DNA from: Fidelibacterota bacterium
GTDB lineage: Bacteria > Fidelibacterota > UBA8477 > JABMPR01
Direction of reading: 5' to 3'
Length of the DNA: 64,000 nt
Assembly (NCBI GenBank): GCA_018673925.1
Contig: JABHBL010000043.1
Span: forward strand, 62,001-126,000
The position numbers and the translations under genes were made by a program. The notes beneath the pieces were generated by a model. That model had not been told where the DNA came from and ran no database searches. It saw only the letters and a program-made list of their open reading frames with translations. This document shows, piece by piece, positions 52,194 through 63,363 of the stretch. Each line of letters starts with the position of its first letter. Positions within the stretch are counted from its first letter, which is position 1.

Positions 52194-54311
52194 CTAGTTA
52201 GGGAGGATTCCTGTTCCCAGTTTCTGCATATAGGCAATAAGAGCGATAATCTCTTTGTCCCAGGATGTTTCAATGCCCGAGTCCTTTAGGTTGGCAACGA
52301 TACCTTCAGCCTGTTTCTTAAGATCATCCAGAGCTACATCCTCATATCCTTCTGCATAGGGAACACCCAGAGTTCTCATGGCGCTAATCTTCATAGGAAG
52401 ATCAGCATAGTCATTGGATCGTTCTAACAACCAGGGATAGACCGGCATAATAGAACCGGGACTCATTGAGCGCGGATTGTCCATGTGATTGTAATGCCAG
52501 GCATCAGGTTTTTTCAACTTACCAACACCTTCACGATGGAGATCGGGTCCTGTTCTCTTGGAACCCCAGAGGAAGGGGTGATCATAAACGAATTCACCAG
52601 CCTTGGAGTATTCACCATAGCGTTCAGTTTCACTTCGGAAGGGACGAATCATCTGGGAATGGCAGTTAAAACAGCCCTCCTTGATGTAGATGTCGCGTCC
52701 TTCAAGCTCCAGGGGTGAGTAAGGTGTCACCGTAGAGATAGTGGGGATATTAGATTTCACCACAAACATGGGTACAAATTCTACAATACCACCAATGGCA
52801 ACAGCTACTAGGGCTGCAGCCAGGAAGTACATGGGACGGGCTTCAAGCCAGCGGTGTTTATGTTCACCTGGCTCCGACACGATGGGTTTCAGGGGAGCCG
52901 CTTCCATTTCCTGATCAGGAATCGGAGCTCCGGAGCGGGCAGTTTTGACCAGGTTATAAACCATGATCAGGGAACCAGCCAGATAAAGCGTACCACCAAA
53001 AGCTCGGGTCCAGTACATGGGCACCAGCTGTAATACGGTTTCCAGAAAGTTTGGATAGACCAGTAAACCCTCGGGAGTGAACTGTTTCCAGATCAAAGCC
53101 TGGGTAATACCCGTCCAGTACATGGGAATGACATAAAAAATGATGCCCAGCGTGGCTAGCCAGAAGTGAACATTGGCAAGCTTGACTGAATACAGTTTGG
53201 CATTCCATAAACGAGGTGCCAACCAGTACAACATTCCAAAGGTCAGCAGACCGTTCCAGCCCAGCGCGCCAATATGGACGTGGGCAATGGTATAATCTGT
53301 GAAGTGCGAGATGGCATTATAATTTTTCAATGACATCATGGGACCTTCAAAGGTGGACATTCCATAGGCTGAAACAGCCACAACCATAAACTTGAGGATG
53401 GGATCCTGTCGAACTCGATCCCAGGCACCACGTAGCGTGAGGAGACCATTAAGCATGCCACCCCATGAGGGGGCAATCAGCATAATGGAGAACACGGTTC
53501 CCAGGGTTTGAGCCCAGTCAGGTGTTGAAGTATAAAGCAGGTGGTGAGGACCAGCCCAGATATACAGAAAGATGAGAGCCCAGAAATGAATAATCGACAG
53601 TCGATAAGAATAGACTGGTCTTTGAGCCGCTTTGGGCATGAAATAGTACATCAGACCCAGATAGGGTGTTGTCAGGAAGAATGCGACAGCGTTGTGACCA
53701 TACCACCATTGAACAAGAGCATCCTGTACGCCGGCATAGAGTGAGTAGCTTTTCCAGAAGCTCACTGGTATGGCCAGAGAATTCACAATATGGAGCATGG
53801 CAACGGTGACAAAAGTGGCGATATAAAACCATATCGCTACATAGAGATGTTTCTCACGTCGTTTAAGGATGGTTCCCATCATGTTCACACCCCAGGCAAC
53901 CCAGATCAGAGCAATGGCGATATCAATGGGCCATTCCAGCTCTGCGTATTCTTTGGCTGAGGTAAGACCAGCAGGCAGTGTTAACGCCGCTGAGACAATG
54001 ATACCCTGCCACCCCCAGAAATGCACTTTACTAAGTACATCAGAAAAATTTCGGGCCTTAAGCAATCTTTGAGCTGAATAGTAGTATCCCATAAATATAC
54101 CGTTGCCAACAAATGCAAAAATAGCAGCGTTGGTATGCAAGGGACGCAGGCGACCGAAGGTCAACCATGAAGTGCCGAAATTAAAGACCGGCGCAGGTAA
54201 CTGAAGCGCAATAGTGAGTCCAACCAAAAAGGCCGTTACGCCCCAGATAACGGTGGCCCAGAAAAACATTCGCACGATTTTATTATCGTACTGAAATTTT
54301 TCCATCTCCAT
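52194..54311 (-). CDS. ccoNO: cbb3 oxidase subunits I and II fused (CcoN-CcoO)
   Basis: 705 residues. Residues ~1-490 are CcoN with the haem/copper-site histidines: LHTNAAIFAFVGNGIF, VQWWYGHNAVAFFLTT, AGPHHLLYT and AHVHIGALGWNG. The remainder is CcoO with a membrane segment, GCFNCHSQMIRPF (haem c site near residue 546) and a mono-haem domain ending before the C-terminus. In Proteobacteria the two are separate genes; fusions occur in Bacteroidota and relatives. This is the catalytic core of a high-affinity terminal oxidase. Confidence 0.95.
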   Translation of the reverse strand: MEMEKFQYDNKIVRMFFWATVIWGVTAFLVGLTIALQLPAPVFNFGTSWLTFGRLRPLHTNAAIFAFVGNGIFMGYYYSAQRLLKARNFSDVLSKVHFWGWQGIIVSAALTLPAGLTSAKEYAELEWPIDIAIALIWVAWGVNMMGTILKRREKHLYVAIWFYIATFVTVAMLHIVNSLAIPVSFWKSYSLYAGVQDALVQWWYGHNAVAFFLTTPYLGLMYYFMPKAAQRPVYSYRLSIIHFWALIFLYIWAGPHHLLYTSTPDWAQTLGTVFSIMLIAPSWGGMLNGLLTLRGAWDRVRQDPILKFMVVAVSAYGMSTFEGPMMSLKNYNAISHFTDYTIAHVHIGALGWNGLLTFGMLYWLAPRLWNAKLYSVKLANVHFWLATLGIIFYVIPMYWTGITQALIWKQFTPEGLLVYPNFLETVLQLVPMYWTRAFGGTLYLAGSLIMVYNLVKTARSGAPIPDQEMEAAPLKPIVSEPGEHKHRWLEARPMYFLAAALVAVAIGGIVEFVPMFVVKSNIPTISTVTPYSPLELEGRDIYIKEGCFNCHSQMIRPFRSETERYGEYSKAGEFVYDHPFLWGSKRTGPDLHREGVGKLKKPDAWHYNHMDNPRSMSPGSIMPVYPWLLERSNDYADLPMKISAMRTLGVPYAEGYEDVALDDLKKQAEGIVANLKDSGIETSWDKEIIALIAYMQKLGTGILPN

Positions 54312-57471: not shown

Positions 57472-57658
57472 ATTGACCCCTTTTCTTCAAACGGATATTT
57501 TTGTTTTTGAGTAAAATATGTTGAACTGTTAAGCATGATTTCAGCACAAAATAATATTGAACATCTCAAATGCCATGAAAATAGTGATGTTTGAGAAAAA
57601 AAGCTCTGCTGAAGAGGGGGAGTTTGTCTGGACAGGAGCGTCGCGATTGCCCCTTATA

Positions 57659-57692
57659 CAAAAAAAGGGCAGGCGATTGCCTACCCTTTTTG
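57659..57692 (-). terminator. Terminator of the outer-membrane-like gene pair
   Basis: AAAAAGGGcAGGC-gatt-GCCTaCCCTTTTT is a strong stem with A and T flanks, 20 bases past the 57712 gene stop. It can act on either strand and separates the envelope block from the cbb3 regulator promoter region. Confidence 0.85.
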
Positions 57693-57711: not shown

Positions 57712-58986
57712 TTAATTTTGATCAAGCCTCAATTTAAAACCTACCAGGATGGCGGCACTTGGCGTCCACTCATTATCCTTGGTATAAACAAGCAGGCTGA
57801 TCGGCAAGCCCAGGGTCTTATTGATATTATAGGTGTATTTAGTCATGATACTGGGACCAGAAACCTGGAAAACAGCTTCATGACGTGGGAAACGCTTCTC
57901 TATGAGGGGCGAGGCATAGTCAAGACGGAAGAAAAGCCCTGATTCATCCAGTGAAGCAGCATCACCATTGGTGAACTCCTCTGTGGTATCTGCTGGATTT
58001 ACACCATACGTCCTTTTCTCATTCTGGAAGCTGACACGATCATCAATAATTTTACTGTGGTCAACCCTTGCTATTACCGCACCAAGGCGGATTTGTAGGG
58101 CGCCTGCAAAAAGACGCTTCTCTTTACCCATAGGAATACCTGAAATGGTGGTATTAAAACTAAGATTCATTAAACCACCCAGATCGTAACTATTTATATG
58201 TGTACCACTGGCCAGAGCTGCCTCAAGGGATTGGAAAAACAACTCCCCGTACAAAACTTTGTACTTAAAGGCTCCAAAGCCACCAATACCACCAGTGAGG
58301 TGATCATCAGCATCGTCGGTACCGGCACGGTAACCCAGGGGAATGGAGGGTGATGGCACCTGAATTCCCATCTTGAAGATAGGGGTGATCACACCAAAAC
58401 GGGCAAAGCCGGCTTCACCGTAGGGACGACCAAAAAGTTCGTTGCCCCATTCAACTGTTATTCCACCAGATTTTCCAAAGAGATAAACCAAACGATCCGT
58501 ACCAATCTGTAAATCAGTATGGGTCCAGAATGATTCTACCTCCAGATAGTCAATCTCTGGTCGATGTTTGGTTGATTCATAGGGTTCAGAAGTGTCCAGA
58601 TGATAATAGGTTTCTTTCTCTGAAATGGTTTGAGCCAACGTGCTACCCAGTACCCATTTCACCTCCATATTATCGATGACATTGTAACCTTCTGAGACTG
58701 TTCCATAGCGAATTTGATAAAGCTGTCTCTGACCCGATTTGGATCTAACAGCAATCACATTGTCTGTTGACGCAATGGGGGGCAATTCAGTTTCGTTGAG
58801 AGTAATGTACTCCTCCACGGCATTCTCAATAAGAAGACGGAAAGGTTCGTACTCAACTGTCCAGGCATCAAAGCGACGGGGGTCCAGCATTGGCGGGGCC
58901 TTGGGCTGAGCCCAAACCGTGGAGATTGAGATAATCAGTACAAGTGTTATCAGGAGTGTTTTGCGAATTGATGTATTCATATTCAA
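57712..58986 (-). CDS. Probable outer-membrane beta-barrel protein, paralogue of the next gene
   Basis: 424 residues with a signal peptide (TLLITLVLIISISTVWAQ). The rest is rich in alternating aromatic/polar beta strands ending in LVGFKLRLDQN, as in a barrel. It shares with the gene at 58993-60297 a FWTH block followed by aligned barrel strands (ESFWTHTDLQIG here, FWWTHRRVDISV there), so the two are related. It is last in the operon with the GldL/GldM-like motor. No known porin family is recognised. Confidence 0.72.
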   Translation of the reverse strand: MNMNTSIRKTLLITLVLIISISTVWAQPKAPPMLDPRRFDAWTVEYEPFRLLIENAVEEYITLNETELPPIASTDNVIAVRSKSGQRQLYQIRYGTVSEGYNVIDNMEVKWVLGSTLAQTISEKETYYHLDTSEPYESTKHRPEIDYLEVESFWTHTDLQIGTDRLVYLFGKSGGITVEWGNELFGRPYGEAGFARFGVITPIFKMGIQVPSPSIPLGYRAGTDDADDHLTGGIGGFGAFKYKVLYGELFFQSLEAALASGTHINSYDLGGLMNLSFNTTISGIPMGKEKRLFAGALQIRLGAVIARVDHSKIIDDRVSFQNEKRTYGVNPADTTEEFTNGDAASLDESGLFFRLDYASPLIEKRFPRHEAVFQVSGPSIMTKYTYNINKTLGLPISLLVYTKDNEWTPSAAILVGFKLRLDQN

Positions 58987-58992
58987 ATCCTC

Positions 58993-60297
58993 CTAGAAGT
59001 ACAATGCTACGGATGGGACAATATAGAAACCTGGTTCCCATTCATATTCAAGAGTTGTGGTTGAGCCCGGAGTGGGATCAACATAATTGAAGGTCATTGG
59101 ACTCCAGAAATAGGTCATATTTAAATTGACACCCAGCCATTCCGTGATGGTATAGGCCGTTGTAAAGTCAAAACCACCAAAACCGTTCAGGCCAATGTTG
59201 AGTTGAGCTGCCATCTTGATTCTATTAAAAAAGCGATTGTTCATATCTGAGGCATATTCTGCTCTGAACAGACCAAACATTGATTCCAGGGGATCACTCT
59301 TATCCAGCAATCCGAAAGCGCCAATACCATCTGAAACACCGGCTTCAGTATCCAGGACATTACCATAGGCAAATTGCATATAGCTAAACCCTATTTGAAG
59401 TCGCAATGATCCAAGAGGTACAAAACCTGGCTGGTCAGCAGTGGTTCCAATACGGCTGGTAAAGCTATAGTAGAATTGACCTGAAGATGGATTATAAACC
59501 ACATGAGAAGGATTCAAAAATGAGGTCGTATCCGTATTGCCGAGAAAGTTCATGTCCTGAAAGGACAGGCTACCGCCAAAATTAGGTGAGTCAAATTTCA
59601 GCACGCCACCGAAAGTTCCTTCAAGCGGAGAGTTGCTACTCTTCAACAGGTTTAAATAGGAGGCCGGCAAGGTGACATAAAATTTCAGGACCTCTGTAGC
59701 CAGACCCATATTTAAGGTCCTGGATGCAGCAGCGGGAAATCCCAGATCCTGTCTACCAAACTCTGTAGCAAAGGCAAAGTTGGGATTCACACGAATAAAC
59801 ATCCGAGGAAAAACGGATATATCAACACGGCGATGGGTCCACCAGAAGGCATCTCTAACCTGCTTGTTACTTCGCTCTTCAAAGACATTGACCACATCAC
59901 CACGACCACCGCCAACATCGACAGCAGCGAGGTAATCCCAGTTGTATTTGCGACTTTGAATACGCGTCACCATTTCTGCATCCATACTATCTAAAACAGC
60001 ATTGACCAGCTTGTTCAAGACACCGCTACGACCTTTGGCATAGATGCTTTCCAGGCTGGCATTGCCTTCTACATCAATCCCGACAATCACTCTTAATTCA
60101 TCGGTTTCTTGAACTTCCAGTTCGGCCATATCATCAATTTCCATAAGGGTATCGATATAGGCTTCCATGAAGCTGCGACTGAATTCGCGATCCTTAACAA
60201 CCCATTCCAGCTTGCCAGTTTCCTGAAACCCCTGTGCCCACATGGTGGATACAAAGACAAGCATAATAACTAAAGTTATGAGGTTTCGTATTTTCAC
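58993..60297 (-). CDS. Probable outer-membrane beta-barrel protein downstream of GldM-like
   Basis: 434 residues with a signal peptide (LITLVIMLVFVSTMWAQ). An N-terminal ~110-residue globular part (FMEAYIDTLMEIDDMAELEVQETDELRV) resembles a periplasmic domain. A barrel-like region follows, ending FYIVPSVALYF with a terminal aromatic typical of outer-membrane proteins. It sits in the position of GldN/PorN next to the GldL/GldM-like pair, but I see no sequence match to GldN. It is six bases upstream of its paralogue. Confidence 0.72.
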   Translation of the reverse strand: MKIRNLITLVIMLVFVSTMWAQGFQETGKLEWVVKDREFSRSFMEAYIDTLMEIDDMAELEVQETDELRVIVGIDVEGNASLESIYAKGRSGVLNKLVNAVLDSMDAEMVTRIQSRKYNWDYLAAVDVGGGRGDVVNVFEERSNKQVRDAFWWTHRRVDISVFPRMFIRVNPNFAFATEFGRQDLGFPAAASRTLNMGLATEVLKFYVTLPASYLNLLKSSNSPLEGTFGGVLKFDSPNFGGSLSFQDMNFLGNTDTTSFLNPSHVVYNPSSGQFYYSFTSRIGTTADQPGFVPLGSLRLQIGFSYMQFAYGNVLDTEAGVSDGIGAFGLLDKSDPLESMFGLFRAEYASDMNNRFFNRIKMAAQLNIGLNGFGGFDFTTAYTITEWLGVNLNMTYFWSPMTFNYVDPTPGSTTTLEYEWEPGFYIVPSVALYF

Positions 60298-60347
60298 TGG
60301 TCCCTCCTTCTTATCATTTCAAACATATTTTATTCTGCATCTTTCAT

Positions 60348-61760
60348 TTAGTAGTTATAGATAAACATTTTGCGATATGAGGTAGCGCTTTTGTTCTGAT
60401 CATCCACACTAAATTTGATTTCCTGAGATTCAACATTATCGAAGGGTTCCTCTAACTCAACTTCCCAGCGGTAGACCTTGCGGCTACCCAGAACCTGAGC
60501 TTCTCCCATCTGGCGATTTGAACCAATACCCCCCTTTTTCCTGAAGCGACGAATGCTATTGTTTTTGCCATAGGTGGTGATTTCAAAGGTCAGATAATTC
60601 CCATCTCGACCCACGGGATTAATTGAAACCTTGGGTGCAGGTGGCTTGACCACTTTAAGGGAGTGATCCATACCCTTGACATCACGTCCATCTACAAGGA
60701 CCTGGAAGGTAATGGTCCCCTCCTCGGTCAAATCGGGTAGTTGGGCAATAGTACCGGGCATGATACCGCCACGGACAGCCGTTCCTCCAACCCGGATAGA
60801 AGTCTCAGAGGAAGGAATATCTCGCAGAGCACCTTCAAACATATAGGGGTCACCTACATAGGCCTCTGTAATGGATGGTTCTTTTAGCCACACTGGCGGC
60901 CTCACCTGAAGCTGGAAGTCTACATCAGTATATTCTTCGTCGGACAGCCTGGTTCCCCTCAGGGTAATTTGACCATCTCTGCGACCTCTACCAGACACCA
61001 CCGTTACAGGAGTACCCGCATTAAGCTTACCAACCAGCTTGGCGCCCTTAATGGCTTTTATCTCCAAATCATCTGAATCCACAATTCCACCAATAATAAC
61101 TCGAACTTCCCAGGGCAATCCTTCAACAATACTGACCCGAGGGCGATCCACGGTAATTGTGAAAGGTGCCTGAATGGCACCCCCGGCAGGATCCAAAGGA
61201 TTTTGGAATTGCTTGTCCAGGGAAATTTCGCCTACATCAGTCATGGCATCCATAATCTTGTGGACAATGGTTTTATCTGAATAGGATTTCTCCAGTTCCA
61301 GCTGGACAAGATCTTCATCAGGCATCACGCTGATTTCTGCCGACATACGATAAAGAATCTCGGCTTTTAGATCAAAATCTGATTTAGGGATGATGGCAAT
61401 AAAGGTCTTGTTGTCCGGATCTTGATTTTTAGGGGCAAGATCGTAGGTTAATTCTTTTAGACCCAACTCCTCCGGTGCATCAATGGGATTGAGATGAACG
61501 CTCCCCTCAAACGAATCTTTTGAAAAAGCACCATCAAGGGAGACTTTCAGGTTAATGGTATCCTTACTATGGATATCCGTGGCGTTACGAATCGTTACCA
61601 GATTCTGAATTTTATCTTTGGAAACTTCCAAAAGGATTTTCTTCTGGTTGTCTTTGAAATGTTTTACTTCACCTTCGATAGCGAAGAAGCTGACAATCGT
61701 GGCGATATAAATGATAAAATAAACTTCGACACGAGCTTGGAACTTTTTCTTGCGAGCCAT
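60348..61760 (-). CDS. GldM-like periplasmic motor protein
   Basis: 470 residues. One N-terminal helix (VYFIIYIATIVSFFAIEG, about 12-29) is followed by ~440 periplasmic residues in several Ig-like beta domains (for example SVEG...GRGRRDGQITLRG, TEAYVGDPYMFEG, NPVGRDGNYLTFEITTYG). This is the layout of GldM/PorM, the force-transmitting partner of GldL in type IX secretion/gliding. Similarity is architectural plus gene order; sequence identity is probably low. Confidence 0.72.
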   Translation of the reverse strand: MARKKKFQARVEVYFIIYIATIVSFFAIEGEVKHFKDNQKKILLEVSKDKIQNLVTIRNATDIHSKDTINLKVSLDGAFSKDSFEGSVHLNPIDAPEELGLKELTYDLAPKNQDPDNKTFIAIIPKSDFDLKAEILYRMSAEISVMPDEDLVQLELEKSYSDKTIVHKIMDAMTDVGEISLDKQFQNPLDPAGGAIQAPFTITVDRPRVSIVEGLPWEVRVIIGGIVDSDDLEIKAIKGAKLVGKLNAGTPVTVVSGRGRRDGQITLRGTRLSDEEYTDVDFQLQVRPPVWLKEPSITEAYVGDPYMFEGALRDIPSSETSIRVGGTAVRGGIMPGTIAQLPDLTEEGTITFQVLVDGRDVKGMDHSLKVVKPPAPKVSINPVGRDGNYLTFEITTYGKNNSIRRFRKKGGIGSNRQMGEAQVLGSRKVYRWEVELEEPFDNVESQEIKFSVDDQNKSATSYRKMFIYNY

Positions 61761-61778
61761 GCGGCTACTCCTGTCGGT

Positions 61779-62315
61779 TTATTTGGCACTCATATTGGCG
61801 CTTAACAATCGTTGAATCTCATTGCGGACCCGGATATTGATCTGTTCATCAGCCAGCTCTTTTAAATGTTGGTTCAAATTCTCACTTTGCTCTGCATTTT
61901 TTGCCAGTTTATCAATAAGGACACTGGCCTGTTTGGTAAATTTGTTGATTTCCTTGGCAACTTCGGGGACATCTGCAGACTGTACTGCAAATTCTTTTAC
62001 AGGCGCAGGGCTACCATCTGCGGATTCACCGCCACCCTCCATTTCCGAAGCTTCTTCTTCAAGGGTCATGAGAAAGGTTTCTTTTCCTGCCTGATAAATG
62101 GTCAAAGCATATAATAGCAAGAGACTGAATTCCACAGCCAGGGCACCAATTGTTACAAACTCAATAAATCCGAAGCCTTCTTCTGCCACAGAAAGAACCG
62201 TTCTCAATCCTGTGACTAAAATCAGAAATGCTGCTCCAGAATACACCAAAGCCTGTCGACTTGGGTATTGCTCCATGATTGTCTTTTTTCTAGTATATCC
62301 CTGTACTTTTGCCAT
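61779..62315 (-). CDS. GldL-like proton-motive-force motor protein
   Basis: 178 residues. Two membrane helices (about 22-40 and 48-72) are followed by a long helical cytoplasmic tail with coiled-coil character (EINKFTKQASVLIDKLAKNAEQSENLNQHLKELADEQ). In helix 2 the Glu62 (AVEFSLLLLYA) matches the position of the conserved GldL glutamate that takes part in proton flow. A tandem GldM-like gene lies 18 bases downstream. Together they suggest an ion-driven motor across the inner membrane. Confidence 0.75.
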   Translation of the reverse strand: MAKVQGYTRKKTIMEQYPSRQALVYSGAAFLILVTGLRTVLSVAEEGFGFIEFVTIGALAVEFSLLLLYALTIYQAGKETFLMTLEEEASEMEGGGESADGSPAPVKEFAVQSADVPEVAKEINKFTKQASVLIDKLAKNAEQSENLNQHLKELADEQINIRVRNEIQRLLSANMSAK

Positions 62316-62472
62316 AGCTTTTTCTTCCGTTTTATTCAGTTAAAATGACGAACTAGCGTAAATCTTATGCAATAGACACAATTTTTTTTGCCGGTTTTAA
62401 ATAAGTCTCTAAATGTTGCTTGTCAGGCTTGCTTTGTCAAGGAGGATTCTTGTCATCTATACCTGCTGTATT

Positions 62473-63363
62473 CTACTTCTGGAGTTCAATATCCAAATAC
62501 CTTGACTCATAGGGGTCCTGGGACTTAAAATCATATTCAAATTGAGTTTCACCGTTATTCAGCGTAACCATCCGATCAGGTGCTTGAGTAAAGTTGACAG
62601 TCTGGCTACCATAGACCACTCGCAACGCCCAGTCGGGGAGCGCATGATTCATGGTGAATTCATAAAGAAATTTTTGATCAAATACTTCCTCCATGGATTT
62701 ATAAGTAAAGCCGAATGCCAGATTGCTGTTGGATACCTGAAAGACCAACCACTCCCCCTTGTCATCTTTCACAATACTAGATGGTATACTTGCTCCATCA
62801 CCCGCTTTAACCCATGGGTTGGTGGCATTGAATGGCAGTAAACACTCAAAACGCAGAGGCCATTCCAGACCATCTCTTAGCTGCCCCTCAATTTCAACAT
62901 CAAAATTCTTGTAAGCTGGATCGGGATGAATGGTCATGCTGAAAGTATTGAAAGGTGTGTTTTTTGATGACCATTCATTAAAAGCAAAAATAAAGGGGAT
63001 GGATATCCAGACTTCCTCAGGTTCGCCCTGTCGCGTGGCAGGTTCAAAGGGAGTGCGCTTGATAGCGTTGGTTACGATCTGGTCCAATTCAGGATATAGG
63101 GGCTCTATCACGCGGGTCTGTTTGACCTGACCTTCTACTGAGATAAGGGCATTTATGACCACAGTCCCTTCAATACCTGCTTCACGGATGGCTCGAGGAT
63201 AGTGAATGCGTGCGCTCAAGGTTTCATAACCACCCATAGGCTGGGGTTTAACAAGATCAACCGGGTCCTTTTCACCAAAAAACCAGGCACATTGCTGGAG
63301 AAGTAACAGCAAACAAATCGACTGGATCACCGCTATTGGGAACCGATATTGTTGTGCGCGCAT
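62473..63363 (-). CDS. Lipoprotein with a TonB C-terminal domain
   Basis: 296 residues from the ATG at 63363, which has GGAGGTG at good spacing; an earlier in-frame start at 63426 is unlikely. A lipobox ends at Cys25 (CLLLLLQQC). A TonB-C domain follows (about 45-130): ARIHYPRAIREAGIEGTVVINALISVEGQVKQTRVIEP and DQIVTNAIKRTPFEPATRQGEP. The rest is beta-rich and unrecognised. It lacks the proline-rich spacer and N-terminal anchor of ordinary TonB, so it probably does not couple to ExbBD. Gene precedes the GldL-like gene. Confidence 0.8.
   Translation of the reverse strand: MRAQQYRFPIAVIQSICLLLLLQQCAWFFGEKDPVDLVKPQPMGGYETLSARIHYPRAIREAGIEGTVVINALISVEGQVKQTRVIEPLYPELDQIVTNAIKRTPFEPATRQGEPEEVWISIPFIFAFNEWSSKNTPFNTFSMTIHPDPAYKNFDVEIEGQLRDGLEWPLRFECLLPFNATNPWVKAGDGASIPSSIVKDDKGEWLVFQVSNSNLAFGFTYKSMEEVFDQKFLYEFTMNHALPDWALRVVYGSQTVNFTQAPDRMVTLNNGETQFEYDFKSQDPYESRYLDIELQK

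Follow-up and report, generated by a model that had tools for sequence, protein, structure and literature searches.

A probably mobile four-gene cassette of Candidatus Neomarinimicrobiota that may couple an inner-membrane protein pair to its own outer-membrane barrels

Four adjoining genes, L, M, X and Y (together LMXY), may encode an undescribed machine, complete in itself and driven by protons, that would span the envelope, with M acting directly on two dedicated barrels, X and Y; we regard this reading as evenly poised. To judge from sequence comparison, LMXY matches no named protein family and appears not to be just the motor that Bacteroidota are known to use for gliding and secretion. 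The proposal builds on the gene unit itself, the topology signals of its proteins, an invariant buried charge, the barrel-type fold modelled for X, the co-inheritance of the genes and the existence of empty sites. The window analysed, a 64-kb stretch of DNA, lies on contig C69, in a genome of 3.4 Mb. Five minus-strand genes lie at 57712-63363, where the original prediction had placed them, and are read in the order TonB-C lipoprotein, L, M, X, Y. The features of the locus are:

62473-63363, minus strand: TonB-C lipoprotein, 296 aa; a neighbour, outside the LMXY unit
61779-62315, minus strand: L, 178 aa; two transmembrane helices and, in the cytoplasm, a helical tail (predicted topology)
60348-61760, minus strand: M, 470 aa; a single transmembrane helix at the N-terminus, followed by a chain of Ig-like (beta) domains
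58993-60297, minus strand: X, 434 aa; signal peptide, N-terminal alpha/beta domain and C-terminal beta-barrel (outer-membrane, predicted)
57712-58986, minus strand: Y, 424 aa, TTG start; barrel related to that of X, N-terminal domain different from that of X (outer-membrane, predicted)
57658-57691, minus strand: intrinsic terminator with a 13-bp stem and a U run; -20.6 kcal/mol, z -3.8
57560-57591, strand unassigned: conserved element with inverted ends, AACATC...GATGTT, upstream of Rrf2-ccoI

The intergenic gaps from L to Y are 18, 50 and 6 bases. Because a strong intrinsic terminator stands directly 3' of Y (its plus strand is also stable, z -5.0), LMXY probably forms its own transcription unit, ending ahead of the Rrf2-ccoI genes. 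Sites found in a scan for sigma-70 promoters were no more numerous than in shuffled sequences. The four genes are genuine, and purifying selection on them is strong: measured against three close congeners, dN/dS was 0.016-0.035 for L, 0.055-0.058 for M, 0.028-0.049 for X and 0.024-0.065 for Y, or 0.016-0.065 overall. Further along, at 52194-54311, the window encodes a single 705-aa protein which reads like a fusion of the cbb3 oxidase subunits CcoN and CcoO; the CcoI-like ATPase and the Rrf2 regulator upstream of this gene were likewise assigned by reading.

Hydropathy places two hydrophobic segments in L, at residues 22-45 and 47-76, with E62 within the second. This glutamate is invariant in 28/28 L sequences, many of them only 25-48% identical to the L of the window, which bears out the two helices with an embedded Glu62 described originally. 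Also invariant across the 28 sequences are Y25, G27, A28, A29, G36, F63, Y69 and A70, residues 27-29 making up a GAA motif, and position 38 is always basic (R in 26, K in 2). L therefore has the anatomy of GldL, in that it has two transmembrane helices, the second of which holds a conserved Glu, but the family searches did not follow the anatomy. None of the 28 sequences matched GldL (PF22827, TIGR03513) in Pfam or NCBIfam, although a classical GldL used as positive control (locus L132) matched PF22827 at 3.5e-24. Alignment of the L helices by hhalign with six classical GldL sequences (five solved and one other) gave a probability of 0.4%, which was outscored by block-shuffled decoys reaching up to 36%.

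M has one hydrophobic segment, at residues 9-33, and its residues E29-G30-E31, which sit where the helix is predicted to emerge into the periplasm, are invariant in 29/29 sequences. The AlphaFold2 model (pLDDT 82.7, pTM 0.47) is a 50-residue helix followed by beta domains, the first periplasmic domain being predicted mostly beta. The best 50 Foldseek matches of this model were generic Ig chains, with no GldM among them. Hydropathy, model and fold search agree with the earlier description of a one-helix protein with Ig-like periplasmic domains, and M shares with GldM the plan of a single transmembrane helix at the N-terminus ahead of several Ig-like domains in the periplasm. Pfam and NCBIfam gave no match to GldM (PF12081/21601/21602/12080, TIGR03517) in any of the 29 M sequences, and the hhalign probability for M against GldM was 0.1-0.5%. 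The original assignment of the pair to the GldL and GldM families was abandoned on these results, having failed family profiles, profile-profile alignment and fold search; the anatomy alone agrees with it.

X begins with a hydrophobic segment, followed by an alpha/beta domain at approximately residues 28-150. Its model, of moderate confidence only (pLDDT 70), consists of this domain and a barrel, and X thus shows the signal peptide and, in that model, the transmembrane barrel of an outer-membrane beta-barrel protein. The best fold matches were OmpT, AlgE and porin barrels (E 1e-5 to 1e-3); X differs from such barrels in that the TM-scores are low, about 0.2, in its extra conserved N-terminal domain and in having no sequence match to them. 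From about residue 150 on, the barrels of X and Y are related to each other (hhalign probability 95%, E 2e-8), whereas their N-terminal domains have no detectable relation, so the description of the two as paralogous outer-membrane-like proteins is borne out, detectably, in the barrel part only. Neither protein gave an hhalign signal with GldN or GldK, and both were dropped as candidates for those roles. When L, M, X and Y were compared with the sequences of solved structures, the matches were due to chance only, to coiled coils, antibodies and the like.

The order L-M-X-Y is kept across Neomarinimicrobiota and on one KSB1 contig, and the related loci are almost all from Candidatus Neomarinimicrobiota (Marinimicrobia). 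Identity of L is 77-99% within the genus; elsewhere identity falls to about 20-30%. Of the 199 phylum genomes 26 have M; X was found in 25 of these and in none without M. The lone genome with M and no X (G013) has its locus interrupted by a contig end.

Empty counterparts of the locus were found in congeners. In G020, G029, G045 and G094 the whole stretch between the TonB-C lipoprotein and CcoNO, CcoI included, is intact and LMXY is absent; at its position there is Rrf2 alone in G029, G045 and G094, and an unannotated gap in G020. G033 has the same empty arrangement up to CcoI, where the contig ends, and in G061, also without LMXY, the TonB-C lipoprotein occurs in a different setting. The element at 57560-57591 was matched at the empty sites too, and shows the near boundary of the insertion site; it is a landmark outside the LMXY unit. 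Since the empty sites are intact and carry this element, LMXY is a discrete cassette, gained or lost between the TonB-C lipoprotein and Rrf2-ccoI. The lipoprotein itself had been counted as part of the operon. Its TonB-C domain is secure (PF03544, E 3e-15), but the empty sites, and its presence in 19/19 sampled genus genomes, six of them without LMXY, rule it out as a partner. A PafA phosphatase, also considered as a partner, was likewise ruled out by the empty sites.

One genome, G053, carries beside its standard copy a second, divergent L-M-X copy (contig C48, L036:11578-14206). In the M tree this second copy groups with the copy of another family, f12 (support 96/86, long branches), which is why we think that LMXY probably moves between genomes.

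To our knowledge, very few proton-driven motors acting on the outer membrane are known. In the arrangement we propose, L subunits would form a ring, of presumed stoichiometry, around the transmembrane helices of M. Proton flow by way of the invariant Glu62 of L would move M, the L ring turning or shifting what would be a dimer. The Ig-like chain of M would span the periplasm and act, by a predicted contact, on X and Y at their N-terminal domains in the periplasm, coupling M to the barrels without a ring of the GldK/GldN type. The function of LMXY and its motor activity we infer; what speaks for a motor is the topology and a single invariant Glu that is buried, because profile and profile-profile searches detected no homology of L or M to proven motors. 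Also counting against the proposed machine are the differences in accessory partners between lineages and, within the genus, an excess of T9SS sorting domains in the genomes with LMXY, both described below. A bolder reading, which we hold only tentatively, is that LMXY represents a separate class of proton-driven motor, barrel-coupled and carried on a mobile four-gene cassette, without detectable relation to GldLM, ExbBD, TolQR or MotAB. If the proposal is true, the transfer of force from a motor to an outer-membrane protein could be studied in a minimal system, four genes that include their own barrels. We found nothing in the open-licence literature connecting Neomarinimicrobiota or Marinimicrobia to an LMXY-like system.

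The nearest known system for comparison is the GldLM/PorLM pair of Bacteroidota (PDB 6ys8, 7sau, 7sat), which serves type 9 secretion (T9SS) and gliding. As with L and M, the two partners are encoded by adjacent genes: one protein has two helices, the first carrying a basic residue and the second a conserved Glu, and the other has a single helix and Ig-like periplasmic domains. The helix-2 Glu of F. johnsoniae GldL, E49, is essential (PMC8986121). By eye, the solved GldL proteins also share with L a GAA motif, a basic residue 11 positions on and the Glu of TM2, which we treat as a lead only, the profile tests having given it no backing. By analogy, then, LMXY may work like GldLM. The D1 domain of GldM is helical, whereas the first domain of M is predicted to be beta. 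LMXY also differs in having no GldN and in the two barrel genes that follow M. The likeness could nevertheless be taken further, with L and M as diverged GldL and GldM of the genome's own T9SS, and X and Y in place of GldK and GldN. A search of the genome for sprA and T9SS C-terminal domains found a SprA homologue (717 bits joined) and 110 sorting-domain matches, one of the latter about 4 kb past the window's left edge. The genome therefore has both SprA and candidate T9SS substrates, with no classical GldL, GldM or GldN, as this explanation would have it. The 64-kb window itself holds no sorting-domain match, as originally stated, though the genome has so many. The absence of GldN noted in the window also held, and extends genome-wide and nearly phylum-wide; neither gldK nor gldN stands beside L and M as in a T9SS core operon.

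The distribution of the genes argues against this explanation. Of the phylum genomes, 193/199 have SprA and 197/199 have sorting domains (about 97-99%), compared with 26/199 (13%) for LMXY, which is thus patchy among genomes nearly all of which have SprA. In the better genomes the counts were 94/94 for SprA, 94/94 for sorting domains and 9/94 for M, and six congeners have SprA without LMXY. LMXY is therefore not the general T9SS motor of the phylum, and in our reading would stand apart from the core type 9 translocon. Together with the hhalign score of L below its shuffled decoys, the failure of M to align with GldM, the mostly beta first domain of M and the lack of relation of X and Y to GldN or GldK, this makes a diverged T9SS motor unlikely. 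A T9SS link is nevertheless hinted at in the genus, where sorting-domain candidates number 36 per Mb with LMXY and 26 without (permutation p 0.00025, in a test that ignores relatedness and uses first-look candidates). The excess was not seen in f22 (p 0.17) or f11 (p 0.25), and LMXY may have a role in T9SS in some lineages. Of the original idea of a motor re-used for another envelope task, the anatomy and the distribution are in favour, while the GldLM name and the membership of the TonB-C lipoprotein have gone.

Among the 199 phylum genomes, profile searches found classical GldL, GldM and GldN above cut-offs in G193 alone. Its contig C9 (L132) carries classical gldK, gldL, gldM and gldN, the GldL and GldM matching Pfam and PDB entries. 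Contig C9 of G185 (L134), a genome which shares the genus g69 with G193, encodes a full-length SprA (2362 bits). These may be Bacteroidota contigs binned with Neomarinimicrobiota, and the G193 bin is probably contaminated. The near phylum-wide occurrence of SprA and sorting domains without detectable GldL, GldM or GldN raises the question of what powers T9SS in these bacteria.

The core of LMXY is constant, and what is attached to it varies between lineages. At seven f11-type loci (L092:1051-5427, L093, L094, L097, L099, L108 and L118) five genes lie directly upstream of L, encoding a zinc-ribbon membrane protein, a pseudopilin-like protein, ParA, a PilN-like and a PilO/PilP-like protein. ParA gave the sole strong Pfam match of the block (E 1.7e-29); the PilN- and PilO/PilP-like products are two one-helix proteins read by eye, with a weak T2SSB match only, and the pseudopilin was also read by eye. 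In f22 a lipoprotein with cadherin/Ig repeats precedes L, Y has an N-terminal extension with cadherin and Big_9 repeats (L098:9188-11518 and relatives), and the barrel part of X is enlarged by an insertion of about 150 residues. A weak SHD1 match (E 1e-4) in two members of the X scan is unconnected to this insertion. Such partners would suit surface movement or gliding, with M dragging surface structures bound to X and Y instead of driving transport. We consider this rather improbable, for no adhesin is consistently linked to LMXY, the PilN/PilO and pseudopilin readings were made by eye, and the accessory genes are absent from the window's own locus.

The porin-type fold modelled for X, and the presence of two paralogous barrels with periplasmic N-terminal domains, could also suggest a Ton- or Tol-like use, in which M energises X and Y for outer-membrane uptake or envelope stability. 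ExbBD-TonB, TolQR-TolA and MotAB are 5:2 rotary motors (review PMC9389320), and L and M would resemble them as an inner-membrane pair of the proton-motor type that works across the periplasm. L, however, has two helices instead of three or four, the Pfam and NCBIfam matches listed for the relatives of L include no ExbB, TolQ or MotA family, and the alignment shows no Asp of the ExbD/TolR type in the M helix; we think such a use quite improbable. That L and M, instead of being a motor, tether the X and Y barrels passively or serve as a platform for their assembly would accord with the lack of demonstrated homology to a motor, but is very improbable, since a mid-helix Glu invariant in sequences so diverged is hard to explain unless it is working.

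Beside the LMXY copy on the KSB1 contig, two adjoining frames (L095:3516-5029) read like a C25-type peptidase, and by the same reading they end in a T9SS sorting domain.
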